A stretch of 64,000 nt of DNA from Propionispora vibrioides (GTDB lineage Bacteria; Bacillota; Negativicutes; Propionisporales; Propionisporaceae), in assembly GCF_900110485.1 (NCBI RefSeq), contig NZ_FODY01000008.1, positions 62,001-126,000 of the forward strand, in the 5' to 3' direction. The notes beneath the pieces were generated by a model, which was not told the DNA's origin, made no database searches, and saw only the letters and a program-made list of their open reading frames with translations. The number at the start of each line of letters is the position of its first letter. The stretch's first letter is position 1. Made by a program: the position numbers and the translations under genes. This document shows, piece by piece, positions 57,086-63,820 of this stretch.

Positions 57086-57460
57086 CTAAAACAGTCTGGC
57101 AATACCAATCCCCAGCCAGGTGGCAAAAAAACCGACTCCCAAATTGAGTCCTACATTATAAAAAGCCCGCAAGGCATCGGCAGTTTGCAGTAAGCGCAAA
57201 GTCTCATAACTAAAGGATGAAAACGTAGTCAAACCGCCTATTAAGCCAATGGCGACAAGCAATCGCCAGTAGGGGCTGATGCTTAACCGCTCGGTGGTCA
57301 TTGTCAAAAATAAGCCGATAATGAAGCACCCTACCACATTAACAAGCAACGTCCCAAAGGGAAACTCCGGACCAAACCGCTCCGCCATCCAATTGGACAC
57401 TAAATACCGAATGACTGAACCAATCCCACCGCCGACCGCTACTAAAACAATTCCCAGCAT
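57086..57460 (-). CDS. crcB: Fluoride ion channel CrcB/Fluc
   Basis: This 124-residue, four-helix inner-membrane protein has the Fluc signatures GGGIGSVIRYLVS near residue 10, FGTLLVNVVGCFIIG near residue 36 and GLIGGLTTFSSFSYE near residue 73 (the GGLTTFS.F phenylalanine box). Fluc dimers let fluoride leave the cytoplasm. It is the last gene of a minus-strand unit with a DUF190 gene, usp and an antiporter, downstream of two fluoride riboswitches. The ATG follows AGAGGTG. Confidence 0.96.
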   Translation of the reverse strand: MLGIVLVAVGGGIGSVIRYLVSNWMAERFGPEFPFGTLLVNVVGCFIIGLFLTMTTERLSISPYWRLLVAIGLIGGLTTFSSFSYETLRLLQTADALRAFYNVGLNLGVGFFATWLGIGIARLF

Positions 57461-57495: not shown

Positions 57496-57843
57496 TTATC
57501 GCTTCGGTGGTTTATGACCGTATTTGATAACTTCTATATCGTCAATCGTAACCATTCCCTCCTCCAGCATATCATCCAGGAAGGGCAATAGCTTGGCAAC
57601 ATACTCCTCACTGTCGATAATTTCCACTAAAATGGGTAAATCACTGGATAAATCCACAATACTGGCCGTATGAATCCGGCTGTTGGCCCCATAACCCACG
57701 ATGCCGCGAAACACCGTCGCCCCCGCCATATCCAGTTCCTTGGCCTTTTCCACGATAGCTTGATACAAAGAACGCCGTTTCCAGTGATCGCTTTCCCCGA
57801 TATAAATCCGTAATCGTTTGGCCTGACTCGCAATTTTGGGCAC
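57496..57843 (-). CDS. DUF190 protein (CrcB-associated)
   Basis: This 115-residue protein has the DUF190 pattern RIYIGESDHWKRRSLYQAIVEKAKELDMAGATVFRGIVGYG, then VEIIDSEEYVAKLLPFLDDML. It is a small, GlnB-like ferredoxin-fold protein often found beside crcB, with no proven function. The start is GTG after GGAGGAG. A second DUF190 gene lies at 63.4-63.8 kb. Confidence 0.93.
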   Translation of the reverse strand: MPKIASQAKRLRIYIGESDHWKRRSLYQAIVEKAKELDMAGATVFRGIVGYGANSRIHTASIVDLSSDLPILVEIIDSEEYVAKLLPFLDDMLEEGMVTIDDIEVIKYGHKPPKR

Positions 57844-58110: not shown

Positions 58111-58536
58111 TTATTTTACCACAACAACCGGCACTTTAGCATAGGTAACCACCTTTTGCACTACACTGCCAATAATCAGACTTTTAAATCCACCCATGCC
58201 CCGTGTACCCATGACAATCAAATCGGCCCTGCGATCAACAGCGTAGCGCATCAGGCTCTCCGCCGGATGGCCCTTTAAGATTTCCGTCTGTAGAAAAATC
58301 CCCTGTTCCTCACCATAAACCACAGCCTGCTCCAGCAGCGGCCGGTACTGTTTCTCTCCATCGGCGTACCATTCATCCACTTCATCAATGCTGGAGCTAA
58401 ATTCAGGGGGCTTAACCACACTGGCCACTACCACCGTCGCCCCCTCAAACCTGGCAGCCAGGCCTACCGCCCAGACTAACGCCTTGTGGCTGCCGGCTGA
58501 GCCGTCATAAGCCACAACTATTTTTTTCAAATCCAT
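58111..58536 (-). CDS. Universal stress protein
   Basis: This 141-residue UspA-fold protein starts KKIVVAYDGSAGSHKAL and carries the ATP-binding motif IVMGTRGMGGFKSLIIGSVVQKVV (GX2GX9GS) near residue 108. It is the ATP-binding class of Usp. Its ATG lies 2 bp from the antiporter stop, so the two are coupled. Usp genes are among the known partners of fluoride riboswitches. Confidence 0.94.
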   Translation of the reverse strand: MDLKKIVVAYDGSAGSHKALVWAVGLAARFEGATVVVASVVKPPEFSSSIDEVDEWYADGEKQYRPLLEQAVVYGEEQGIFLQTEILKGHPAESLMRYAVDRRADLIVMGTRGMGGFKSLIIGSVVQKVVTYAKVPVVVVK

Positions 58537-58537
58537 A

Positions 58538-59713
58538 TCAATCGGCCTCCCTCTCCCTGATAACCATGTTTTTTATCACTGCCGGCGATTCGTCGGTCTC
58601 ATCTGTCGGGAAAAACCATTTTTGGGCGATCATCGTCGGCACCACGGCGCTCAAAATGACGGTTGCCACCAGTACACTGTACTGTCCCTCATCGATATAG
58701 TGATTAGTTAGCCCGTACAAGGCCGAAATAGTGCCAAAGGTCAGACCGGTGCTCATTAGCAAGGTAGTGTAAATACCGGTACGCGGTGTATAGTGAAACC
58801 AGTTGGTCGCCGGCAATACGCCGATAAACTTGGCAGCCATTTTGATCAGCAGGAAAACCAGGATAGTCCCGGACATCGTATACAAAGCTCCCACCGATAC
58901 CAGTACCCCCGCTTTAATGAAATAGAACGGCGTAAAAACGGCAAATACAATGGCTCGCATTTTCACCAGCGTTGGTTTGTAGTGCTTGAAAAAGCGGGCC
59001 ATGGCCATACCGATAATATAGGCCGGAAGTACCGCCTCGCTGCCGCTGATTACCGCCAGATAGGCCAGGGCTAAGAGTACCAGAAAAATGAACTTGATTT
59101 CCGGCTCACTGACCCGCCCGCCATACCATTTGAATATCCTGGCAGCCAGCGGAGTAATAACCAGCACAGCCACGATCATAACTGCTGTAAACCAGACGAC
59201 CTTTAGCGAAAATCCGGTAAAGAGCAACCCCAGGGCCAGCACCGTCCCCAAATCAGTGACAAAGCAGGCCGCCAGAATGCCTTGACCTAAACGGCTGGCC
59301 GACAGCCCGCTTTCTACCATGACGGCATACACGACGGCCACTGAGGTGGTTGACAGTGCAATACCGGCAATTTTAGCGGCATTGCCGTCCCAGCCGAACA
59401 TATACTCGGCAAGCCACATGCCGCCCAGAAAGGGCAGCAGAAACGATAAAAAGCCAATCACCAGACTTTCTTTCAGGTTGCCTTTAAGACTATCGGGATC
59501 AATCTCAGCCCCGGCAAGAAAGGTCAACACCACAGCACCAAATCCGGCTAAAAAAGTAACCCAGGATGTAATCTCCAAATGCATGGCGTTGCCGCCAATC
59601 ACACCCACGGCAATCTCCATAAGCGCCACCGAAATGCCCAGCCGGATAGACAGGACGGTGGCAATAAGGGCCAGCAGCACCCACTGCGCGGCAATAGCAA
59701 AGTTCTGTTCCAT
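58538..59713 (-). CDS. Cation:proton antiporter (CPA2/KefB-like)
   Basis: This 391-residue inner-membrane protein has about 12 helices. TFLAGAEIDPDSLKG near residue 64 is the CPA2 family motif, and LSTTSVAVVYAVMVESG near residue 120 is the ion-site helix. It has no TrkA-N domain. An antiporter is a usual companion of fluoride riboswitches and may help with ion or pH balance under fluoride (inference). The second fluoride aptamer lies about 200 nt upstream, in its leader. Confidence 0.92.
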   Translation of the reverse strand: MEQNFAIAAQWVLLALIATVLSIRLGISVALMEIAVGVIGGNAMHLEITSWVTFLAGFGAVVLTFLAGAEIDPDSLKGNLKESLVIGFLSFLLPFLGGMWLAEYMFGWDGNAAKIAGIALSTTSVAVVYAVMVESGLSASRLGQGILAACFVTDLGTVLALGLLFTGFSLKVVWFTAVMIVAVLVITPLAARIFKWYGGRVSEPEIKFIFLVLLALAYLAVISGSEAVLPAYIIGMAMARFFKHYKPTLVKMRAIVFAVFTPFYFIKAGVLVSVGALYTMSGTILVFLLIKMAAKFIGVLPATNWFHYTPRTGIYTTLLMSTGLTFGTISALYGLTNHYIDEGQYSVLVATVILSAVVPTMIAQKWFFPTDETDESPAVIKNMVIREREAD

Positions 59714-59912
59714 TGACAGCTACCTCCTTGTTAGTCCTTGACTAATACTCCCAGGGTGTGCTTCAAATTAACGAAATGTTCTATGGCGAGTGACTTTTGC
59801 GAAAAGACAAAATTCACGAAAATGGCCCTTACTTCCAAAAATTTCAACGAAGTGTGTCAAAAAAGCACCCTTCAAAGACACTCCGAACCATTTGCCAACA
59901 CACCCTAGGGAA

Positions 59913-59964
59913 GGTAGGAGTTATTACCGCGTTCACTGCGGGGTTATGGCGAACTCCATCGCCG
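59913..59964 (-). ncRNA. Fluoride riboswitch (crcB motif) upstream of the antiporter operon
   Basis: On the minus strand the aptamer reads GGCGATGGAGTTCGCC, then ATAACCCCGC...GCGG, then TAATAACTCCTACC. Expected elements are present: the stem GGCGA/TCGCC, the CCGC/GCGG stem and the pseudoknot GGAGT with ACTCC. It fits the fluoride aptamer consensus (Rfam crcB RNA). The downstream expression platform is unclear: ACTCC can alternatively pair with GGAGT about 30 nt later, and no clean terminator is visible. Confidence 0.88.
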
Positions 59965-60006
59965 GTTTTTACGCCGTTCTGCCTGAAAAATCAACCGGAC
60001 AGCCTG

Positions 60007-61287
<1,281 letters not shown>

Positions 61288-61407
61288 ACATAGCGCCTCC
61301 TTCGATAAATTACCTATAAGATTTGTTAGCAAACACCTATCAATACATTCAACTCTAATTTTTTCACCAATTAAACTTATATTAGACTTGTTCTTAGCAG
61401 CGGGCAG

Positions 61408-61445
61408 AAAAAAAACAGACTCCTACCACCTAAGTGGTAGGAGTC
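61408..61445 (-). terminator. Riboswitch-controlled terminator before eno
   Basis: On the minus strand GACTCCTACCAC and GTGGTAGGAGTC form a 12-bp perfect stem with a 4-nt loop, followed by eight Ts. Its 5' arm contains the ACTCCTACC that the fluoride aptamer uses for its pseudoknot, so the two folds exclude each other: ligand binding should prevent termination and turn eno on. Confidence 0.92.
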
Positions 61446-61485
61446 ATTACCGTCTGCACGGACTTAAAGGCGAACTCCATCGCCG
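61436..61485 (-). ncRNA. Fluoride riboswitch (crcB motif) upstream of eno
   Basis: On the minus strand: GGCGATGGAGTTCGCC, then TTTAAGTCCGTGCAGACGG, then TAATGACTCCTACC. The stem GGCGA/TCGCC, the CCGT/ACGG stem, the conserved AATGA and the pseudoknot GGAGT/ACTCC all match the fluoride aptamer consensus. It shares 16 identical bases with the second aptamer at 59913-59964. A terminator that reuses the aptamer's 3' strand follows directly. Confidence 0.93.
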
Positions 61486-61504
61486 CTATAAAAATATGGC
61501 TTTA

Positions 61505-63331
61505 TTATATCAGCCGGTCTGATTCTGCGTCAATAGCAACCGCTTTGCCAAACTCTGGCTCTACGGTATTCACTTGCTGCAAAAGCTGCTGCAATTGCCC
61601 GGCAGCCCGCTGCAGCCGGCTGCACCGGTCTGCCACATCCTCAGTTTGTCCCTGTTTTTGCACCGCCGCGGCAGCAACTGCCTGGGCAGTCCCGTCCACC
61701 GCCTCGGCCAGCCGGGCACTAAAGGTTGCCCGGAAGGAATGAAAAGCTGCCTCCGTATTCTGTAAAAGAGCCCAACGCAGGCTTTCCACATTCCGCAGCA
61801 CCAGCGTTTCCACCTGCCGTTCCAGACGCTTGCGGATACGGACAAACCGAAACGAGGCCGGTAGCAGTACCTCCAGCCAGGTGTGGGGAATTCCCCCCAG
61901 GCCTGTTTGCCATTCCGTTTTTACCCAATAGGGCTGACGTTTCATTTGAAAGGTCAGCTCCTGCTCCACCGCCTGATAATCAAGGGCAAAAATGGTGGCT
62001 GCCGTCTGACGCACCGCCTGAATCAAAGCCTCAGCCCGCTGCTGATGAACAGCCATTACACCGGCCAGGTAGTCGCTAAACTGGTCGGCAGTGGCTGACA
62101 GTTCCCGGTCAAAAAAGGGAGCAACAGCCGCCATCAGGGCAGCCTGAGCGTCCCGCTCCAGACCGGGACGTTCACCACCGCTTAGCTCTTTTGCCACCAC
62201 ATGGGATAAGTAGTCCCGGGCCTGCTGCCGCAAGAAGCCGGCCTGCTGCTCCAGAAAGTCCAAAGCCCGCTTGCGATCACCGGCCAGTATGTCATCGGCC
62301 TGCTGCTCTTCGTCCGTCAATTCTGTCAGTTTCTGCCGCAGCAGTGCCTGCTTGGCGGCCAATTCATCGACCGGCATAAGCAGAACCTGGACGGCAAGCT
62401 CCAGCTCCAACAAGGCTTCCCGCAGCACGGCAGCCAGTTTGGTTTCAATAGCCATAGCCAGTACCGCCTGCATTTCCTGCCGGAAGAAAGCTGTTAATAC
62501 CTCCTCCAGCAGGCCTAACCCACTAGCCGCCAGCAGACGGCTATCACCTCTCGCTTTGCCCAAAACTGCCTGCCGGGCCGATACCTGGTAGACGGTTTCC
62601 ACTGCTATGCCGGCCTGTTCCCGCAAAACCTGCCGCAAAAAGCTAACCATGGTGTCCTGTTCCTCACTGCTGAGATGATCAGCCTTATTGAGCACAAAAA
62701 ACAAACGCCGCACATGATGCTGCACAATCTGCAGAAACGCCAATTCCGCCGCCGTAACCGGCGGGTCGGCAGATACGACAAACAGCGCGGCATCACACTG
62801 GGCAAGAAACCGGAGCGTCGTGTCCGTATTATGCCGGAAAGTAGAACCAATGCCCGGCGTATCAATCAGGACGACTCCGCCGGCCAGCAGTGCCGCCGGA
62901 TATTCTACAATCACCTGCTCCACCTGCAAACAATTGGCCGGGTTGGCCTGTTCCGCCACAAACCGGCTCAAATAGTCTGCCAGTGACGCATCATCATCAA
63001 ATACGCCCTGTTCCTCCCGTCCGTCAGCAAACGTTATATATGCCCGCCGTCGCATCCCCTGACGGATGACGGTCGGCAGCGCCGTCACCGGCACCAAACT
63101 GGACGGCAAAAACGGGCCGCCCAGCAAAGCATTGATCAGGCTGCTTTTGCCGCGCTTAAACTGCCCCAGTACCGCCAAATGAAATTGTTTTTCCCTCAGC
63201 CGCTCCGCTAGTTTTTCCACCCGGACAGCATGCGGGATAAATCGATTGCCAACCTGCCTTAGCTGCCCGGCTGCCTCTTCCAGCAGTCCGGTCAGGCAGG
63301 CTTCCTGTTCCGGCATACGGTCATATTTCAT
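61505..63331 (-). CDS. Dynamin-like GTPase
   Basis: This 608-residue protein has a dynamin-type GTPase domain: P-loop LGQFKRGKSSLINALLG near residue 55, switch I TALPTVI, G3 LIDTPGIGS near residue 157, and G4 FFVLNKADHLS near residue 215. A long helical region of about residues 290-600 follows, with a hydrophobic/basic patch around PYWVKTEWQTGLGGIPHTWLEVLLPASFRFVRIRKR that could meet membrane. Bacterial dynamin-like proteins remodel or repair membranes. Its stop lies just upstream of the fluoride riboswitch. The eno unit follows on the same strand. Confidence 0.9.
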   Translation of the reverse strand: MKYDRMPEQEACLTGLLEEAAGQLRQVGNRFIPHAVRVEKLAERLREKQFHLAVLGQFKRGKSSLINALLGGPFLPSSLVPVTALPTVIRQGMRRRAYITFADGREEQGVFDDDASLADYLSRFVAEQANPANCLQVEQVIVEYPAALLAGGVVLIDTPGIGSTFRHNTDTTLRFLAQCDAALFVVSADPPVTAAELAFLQIVQHHVRRLFFVLNKADHLSSEEQDTMVSFLRQVLREQAGIAVETVYQVSARQAVLGKARGDSRLLAASGLGLLEEVLTAFFRQEMQAVLAMAIETKLAAVLREALLELELAVQVLLMPVDELAAKQALLRQKLTELTDEEQQADDILAGDRKRALDFLEQQAGFLRQQARDYLSHVVAKELSGGERPGLERDAQAALMAAVAPFFDRELSATADQFSDYLAGVMAVHQQRAEALIQAVRQTAATIFALDYQAVEQELTFQMKRQPYWVKTEWQTGLGGIPHTWLEVLLPASFRFVRIRKRLERQVETLVLRNVESLRWALLQNTEAAFHSFRATFSARLAEAVDGTAQAVAAAAVQKQGQTEDVADRCSRLQRAAGQLQQLLQQVNTVEPEFGKAVAIDAESDRLI

Positions 63332-63385: not shown

Positions 63386-63820
63386 TCAGCCGCCACTTAC
63401 CAAATAAATCAGGCATACCCGGCGTTTAAAACAGCCCAGCAGCCGGTATAGCCGATTCAGCCACAGCCGGCCGGCCGGAGCTACCGGAACCAGCCCTTTA
63501 AAATCAGTTTCTTTAACCGGTTCCACCGTCACCATTCCATCGCTGCACATATCATCAAGACAGTTCAGCAACTGCCGGAGCCGGGATTCCCGGTCGAGCA
63601 CCTCAATCATCACCGGAATCTCCTGACAAAGCTTCCAGGGCTGTTCCACATGCCAGGTGTCACTGCCGCCATACCCCATGCAGCCCTGCAACGCGGCAAC
63701 CCTGACAATCCCCAGGGCCTTGGCTTTCCCCACCACCGCTTGATACAGCGACCTGCCCCGGTAACGGTCAGTGGTTTGTAAATAGATACATATTCGCAGG
63801 ACCGGGTCTTTTTCTTGCAT
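63386..63820 (-). CDS. DUF190 protein, second copy
   Basis: This 144-residue protein has RICIYLQTTDRYRGRSLYQAVVGKAKALGIVRVAALQGCMGYG and VMIEVLDRESRLRQLLNCLDDM, the same pattern as the CrcB-linked copy at 57.5 kb, plus a C-terminal extension of about 30 residues ending in a Leu/Cys-rich tail. The ATG follows AGGAGG. It lies 54 bp upstream of the dynamin-like gene in the same direction. Confidence 0.9.
   Translation of the reverse strand: MQEKDPVLRICIYLQTTDRYRGRSLYQAVVGKAKALGIVRVAALQGCMGYGGSDTWHVEQPWKLCQEIPVMIEVLDRESRLRQLLNCLDDMCSDGMVTVEPVKETDFKGLVPVAPAGRLWLNRLYRLLGCFKRRVCLIYLVSGG

Follow-up and report, generated by a model that had tools for sequence, protein, structure and literature searches.

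A predicted fluoride ON-switch before a putatively horizontally acquired second enolase gene in Propionispora vibrioides

The minus strand of a 64,000-nt stretch of the Propionispora vibrioides genome (the window, to which coordinates refer unless a contig or locus is named) carries what we interpret, with a probability of approximately 0.87, as a transcriptional fluoride ON-switch located before a horizontally acquired second enolase gene (eno), which together form a unit of a fluoride-resistance island. Control of enolase by fluoride riboswitches is already established (PMC11139923, PMC5533749); new here are the island's size, the recruited enolase clade with its interface signature, and a nonsense allele. 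The leader of this eno gene contains the following elements:

61431..61493, minus strand: fluoride riboswitch aptamer (RF01734), 46.6 bits against a gathering score of 34
61474..61478, minus strand: GGAGT, 5' strand of the pseudoknot, complementary to ACTCC at 61440–61444
61440..61444, minus strand: ACTCC, 3' strand of the pseudoknot, common to the terminator (from the sequence)
61408..61445, minus strand: intrinsic terminator with a 12-bp stem, TTAG loop, TG, and eight T (hairpin search and folding)
61528..61533, minus strand: −35 box TTGACG of the eno leader promoter (consensus match)
61504..61509, minus strand: −10 box TATAAT, preceded by TG (consensus match)
61296..61302, minus strand: Shine-Dalgarno sequence AAGGAGG of eno (from the sequence)

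An earlier sequence-only reading had described a complete fluoride aptamer in this leader, and the covariance-model search suggested with it (cmscan, Rfam 15) confirmed this. The RF01734 match was significant, well above the curated threshold (E = 9.4e-10 over the whole window), and extended over the full model (1–64 of 64). The span of 61408–61485 given for the element runs from the aptamer core to the U tract; the Rfam match begins a few bases further 5', at 61493. The pseudoknot strand GGAGT sits within the conserved GGCGATGGAGTTCGCC (61469–61484). The terminator stem-loop reads GACTCCTACCAC-TTAG-GTGGTAGGAGTC (61445..61418) with 12 perfect pairs, directly followed by TG and eight T, of which the T run occupies 61415..61408. 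As had also been claimed, the ACUCC strand of the pseudoknot is part of the 5' arm of this perfect terminator, so that the terminator and the pseudoknot cannot form at the same time. The folding energy of the leader was −36.5 kcal/mol (z = −5.0 against dinucleotide shuffles), and terminator-type hairpins are rare in the window, with one per strand in 64 kb and none in 20 mononucleotide shuffles. The leader of a sister species (G003) retains the 12-bp terminator with a different loop. Mutual exclusion between the pseudoknot and the terminator base is the architecture described for fluoride riboswitches (PMC11077080), so that the predicted transcriptional ON-switch is well supported by the anatomy of the eno leader.

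The predicted promoter is a strong one of the sigma-70 type and matches 11 of 12 consensus positions with an 18-nt spacer. Its −35 box is embedded in the last part of the dynamin-like gene that lies upstream, and the predicted +1 is approximately 3 nt 5' of the aptamer. In the mechanism that we propose, transcription would start a few bases 5' of the aptamer, and without fluoride the nascent terminator would take ACUCC from the pseudoknot, causing transcription to stop. With Mg-bound fluoride, the pseudoknot would hold and RNA polymerase would read into eno. The product would be a backup enolase, providing added capacity while fluoride inhibits the housekeeping enzyme. Fluoride binding, switching, and a benefit of the extra enolase are expected here from the characterised fluoride riboswitches.

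The gene behind the switch was identified as eno by a profile search, in which the part preceding a premature TAG already scored far above the TIGR01060 cut-off of 300 bits:

60007..61287, minus strand: eno coding region, 426 codons when the TAG is read through (from intact sister orthologues)
60214..61287, minus strand: assembled eno frame up to and including the TAG, 357 codons and the stop (TIGR01060, 532 bits; Enolase_N and Enolase_C)
60214..60216, minus strand: premature TAG, codon 358 of 426 (CAG in the sister species G002 and G003)

Exactly one other eno was detected in the genome, which is 57% identical to the island eno and contains no stop. It is located on a separate contig (C4:21100-22362) as the last gene of a cggR-gap-pgk-tpi-gpmI-eno cluster and hence holds the place in the central glycolytic operon, while the island eno has no glycolytic neighbours. 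This is what the sequence-only reading had anticipated when it held the switch-linked gene not to be the housekeeping copy and proposed looking for a second eno in a gap-pgk-tpi cluster.

The TAG at codon 358 represents a single C-to-T change relative to both sister species, in which the switch is also conserved and the eno orthologues are intact (99% identical in G002 and 91% in G003). The active-site residues H367, R368, S369, and K390 are all encoded downstream of it, leaving the active site incomplete in the assembled frame. The protein made from the open part should therefore be inactive, and a working enolase supply from the island eno is doubtful in this genome. A fluoride-induced enolase supply, as previously suggested, is upheld in part: the ON-switch architecture, the second enolase without glycolytic neighbours, and the housekeeping eno in its glycolytic cluster speak for it, but the assembled reading frame is cut by the TAG. 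Barring a sequencing error or suppression of the stop, the mechanism would here yield a protein without activity; the unit is intact in G002 and G003. There is no frameshift or other stop in eno, and the frame continues past the TAG. Among 36 codon differences between the source genome and G002, 29 are synonymous and 7 are non-synonymous including the stop, as expected if eno had been under purifying selection until recently.

Three explanations of the stop were considered. The TAG may be a real nonsense mutation in a decaying pseudogene, where the switch works and a dispensable enolase is being lost in this strain, to which we assign slightly less than even odds. Such decay accords with the lone C-to-T difference from the two sister species at codon 358, the essential nature of the lost residues, the full housekeeping eno in the genome, and a repeat insertion in the leader of the neighbouring antiporter gene. 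However, it would have to be very recent, since the rest of the reading frame is intact and its differences from G002 are mostly synonymous, and a one-base consensus error accounts for the stop equally well. Such an assembly or sequencing error, under which this strain would possess an intact fluoride-induced enolase, is given the same odds: only one substitution is involved, with no frameshift or further stop, and the sister gene of 99% identity is intact, but the assembly is a draft and the change in it an ordinary transition. That the TAG is decoded as an amino acid, through pyrrolysine or a suppressor tRNA, is highly improbable even though the frame runs on perfectly after the stop. The sister genes have CAG, and the genome contained no PylS above the curated cut-off, only weak matches like those present in 13 of 14 control genomes; pyrrolysine at this codon was rejected on that basis.

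The proposed ON-switch and its eno are one unit among several in the island, whose genes within the window are as follows:

59908..59972, minus strand: second fluoride riboswitch, before a cation/proton antiporter gene (50.4 bits)
59750..59907, minus strand: dispersed repeat between the second aptamer and the antiporter ribosome-binding site (32 related places in the genome)
58538..59713, minus strand: Na+/H+ exchanger family antiporter (PF00999, 126.7 bits)
58111..58536, minus strand: universal stress protein, USP (PF00582)
57496..57843, minus strand: DUF190 protein (PF02641)
57086..57460, minus strand: CrcB (Fluc) fluoride channel (PF02537, 103.4 bits against 32.9)
61505..63331, minus strand: dynamin-family GTPase, upstream neighbour of eno (PF00350, 100.1 bits)
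63386..63820, minus strand: DUF190 protein (PF02641)

Ten fluoride riboswitches scored above the gathering score in this genome, and the same number was found in G002. This is the largest count among the 300 genomes of the class sample, all others of which, except G002, have six or fewer. Eight of the ten lie on one strand of contig C8 within 14.6 kb (121908 to 136509) and include two tandem pairs. The most upstream unit consists of two paired MutS-like genes with a small third gene, one dynamin-like gene, and one HEAT-repeat gene, followed by an aquaporin family gene behind one tandem pair and by a DUF190 gene with a HAD-like gene behind the other. The unit just upstream of eno comprises a gene of unknown type encoding 287 aa, DUF190, and the dynamin-like gene, and the last two units are eno and then antiporter, USP, DUF190, and crcB, the switch of the latter unit being 1.5 kb downstream of the eno switch. 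The remaining two switches are on contig C15, before an MFS transporter gene and before a NifU_N-like and GGGtGRT pair. The island has crcB, three DUF190 genes, and antiporter, USP, MutS-like, dynamin-like, and aquaporin genes next to its switches.

The two copies of each tandem pair are equipped differently: the upstream one with its own promoter and a strong terminator, the downstream one with no good promoter and at most a weak terminator. At these loci (L009 10728-11029 and 12218-12453, corresponding to C8:128728-129029 and 130218-130453), the downstream copy may be degenerate or have another output. Same-strand close pairs or triplets were likewise found elsewhere in the class (e.g., in genomes G130, G040, G014, and G058). 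A literature search on tandem fluoride riboswitches returned nothing on point, which is not proof of absence. The dispersed repeat in the antiporter leader is approximately 155 bp long with inverted-repeat ends, and is present in G002 and missing in G003. In the repeat-free G003 leader, the 3' strand of the aptamer is approximately 45 nt from the antiporter start, where it could pair with the Shine-Dalgarno sequence and act as a translational switch. The best-scoring switch of the genome (51 bits; L011 7223-9051 on C15) is the one that precedes the NifU_N-like and GGGtGRT-family genes, a possible clue to what GGGtGRT proteins do. Furthermore, a 12-residue stretch resembling the CrcB C-terminus adjoins the HAD-like gene (L009 9531-9566 on C8), with a similar stretch in G002; it is possibly a crcB remnant.

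The origin of the island eno was examined by comparison with its relatives. Those with 65–78% identity are found in Pseudomonadota, Myxococcota, Spirochaetota, Planctomycetota, Synergistota, Lentisphaerota, Thermodesulfobacteriota, and Acidobacteriota. Together they form a clade of 32 sequences (support 98, in a tree built without the signature columns described below) that is separate from housekeeping enolases, including that of P. vibrioides itself. By this placement the island eno is a predicted xenologue of a distinct clade, horizontally acquired, and no duplicate of the housekeeping gene. Many clade members have fluoride riboswitches or crcB nearby. At loci from named genomes, many of which are incomplete metagenome bins, a second eno was found for 6 of 7 fluoride-linked members versus 0 of 8 unlinked ones (Fisher p = 0.0014). 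Within the class of P. vibrioides, all nine riboswitch-linked members have a second eno in the same genome. For eight members, the fetched flanks contain no fluoride riboswitch; each of these is the sole enolase detected in its genome and carries the same signature, and the clade is therefore not fluoride-specific. These sequence relationships depict an enolase lineage that appears to serve as the sole enolase in some bacteria and as a recruited, fluoride-controlled second copy in others. One member (L127; G044, C8:50347-51618) reads Q at the catalytic lysine (position 339, yeast K345), and its fetched flanks contain no fluoride riboswitch.

Across 91 other enolases, 152 alignment columns are at least 95% invariant, and only four of them differ in 80% or more of the clade: columns 11 (R to L, M, or H), 23 (E to R), 248 (E to S), and 408 (R to E). 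Mapping by motif and catalytic-residue spacing assigns columns 11, 23, and 408 to R8, E20, and R414 of the yeast and human enzymes, and column 248 to the residue five after the metal ligand D246. At column 411 (E417), the clade mostly has A, and the majority of other enolases have an acidic residue (E or D). The island eno has L, R, E, and A at R8, E20, R414, and E417, respectively; the conserved inter-subunit residues are not kept. E20 and R414 were reported as an ion pair of the antiparallel enolase dimer (PMC9452966), and for Plasmodium R11:E425, which maps to R8:E417, a salt bridge between subunits was reported on the basis of modelling and docking (PMC5494301). Enolases of Burkholderia islands possess D at column 11 and K or R at 411, with A or E at 23 and Q or E at 408. 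The altered invariant columns of the clade and of the Burkholderia eno 2 pair overlap in 4 of 4 cases (hypergeometric p = 4.7e-5, post hoc). Grouping the two lineages was compatible with the tree as a sister placement (AU test, p = 0.52), so that independence of the Burkholderia lineage is not supported, and only the choice of the reversed ion pair differs.

A tentative reading, against which we lean, is that the fluoride-island enolases of the clade form homodimers unable to mix with the housekeeping enolase and are thereby insulated from its pool. The E20-R414 pair would be reversed to R-E with R8-E417 abolished, while in Burkholderia R8-E417 would be reversed to D-K/R with E20-R414 lost. 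The second enolases of fluoride-linked genomes retain R8, E20, and R414. Sole-copy clade members carry the signature as well, two Dehalococcoidia enolases for which no second copy was found also vary at its positions, and fluoride enolases on enterobacterial, Vibrio, and Pseudomonas plasmids retain R8/E20/R414. A signature common to all fluoride-linked enolases was therefore rejected, and a purely fluoride-driven origin is disfavoured by these three groups. Evolution of the interface in response to a paralogue is likewise not supported, given the sole-copy members with the same signature; we hypothesize from their sequences that interface incompatibility, if real, was already present in the clade and did not arise for fluoride.

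The island enolase might instead have been selected for lower fluoride sensitivity rather than for more enzyme, which would suit its standing as a xenologue from a separate clade as opposed to a housekeeping duplicate. However, twelve checked active-site residues equal those of housekeeping enolases in 131 of 132 sequences, and none of the four clade-changed columns is among them. Selection of a resistant isozyme is hence unlikely. Separately, fluoride-operon enolases from Pseudomonas and from enterobacteria and Vibrio (L120, L152-L154) share the changes Q388H, I389L, S285L/V, and Q310E, which adjoin the catalytic lysine and a metal ligand and are perhaps another kind of adaptation.

A backup enzyme in addition to the housekeeping one remains the reading that we prefer. 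As a recruited xenologue with a charge-swapped interface, this enolase could be used to test whether backup enzymes need insulation from a poisoned housekeeping enolase. The ten riboswitches with their two tandem pairs constitute a natural set for graded or digital fluoride responses. The island also brings MutS-like, dynamin-like, HEAT-repeat, aquaporin, and GGGtGRT genes under predicted fluoride control.

Compared with a housekeeping bacterial enolase (TIGR01060), the island enolase belongs to the same fold family with the same catalytic residues, but it shares 57% identity with the housekeeping copy and is altered at R8, E20, R414, and E417. The crcB-type fluoride riboswitch (RF01734) of Bacillus cereus has the same aptamer, the same strand shared with the terminator, and the same ON logic; it regulates crcB, whereas here the switch precedes eno and occurs in ten copies per genome with two tandem pairs. 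Fluoride-riboswitch control of enolase has been reviewed (PMC11139923), and eno of Enterobacter cloacae FRM is up 176-fold with fluoride (PMC5533749). FRM likewise combines a fluoride riboswitch with a second enolase beside crcB and USP genes, but one riboswitch heads one operon there, whereas eno has its own switch here. Comparable enolases of other enterobacterial plasmids are of another lineage with the ordinary R8/E20/R414 interface. On an Escherichia coli plasmid (L151, CP115335.1), the fluoride-operon eno contains an in-frame stop near its 5' end, and its annotated start is a later one. Of such an eno, just a 3' fragment is present on hundreds of plasmids from E. coli, Klebsiella, and Salmonella. 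Plasmid islands of Burkholderia (B. cenocepacia NZ_CP073671 and B. multivorans NZ_CP143553) also combine several switches with eno, DUF190, MutS-like, and dynamin-like genes, but unlike the P. vibrioides island they contain two eno genes and a pyrophosphatase gene, and their enolase interface positions are rewired differently.
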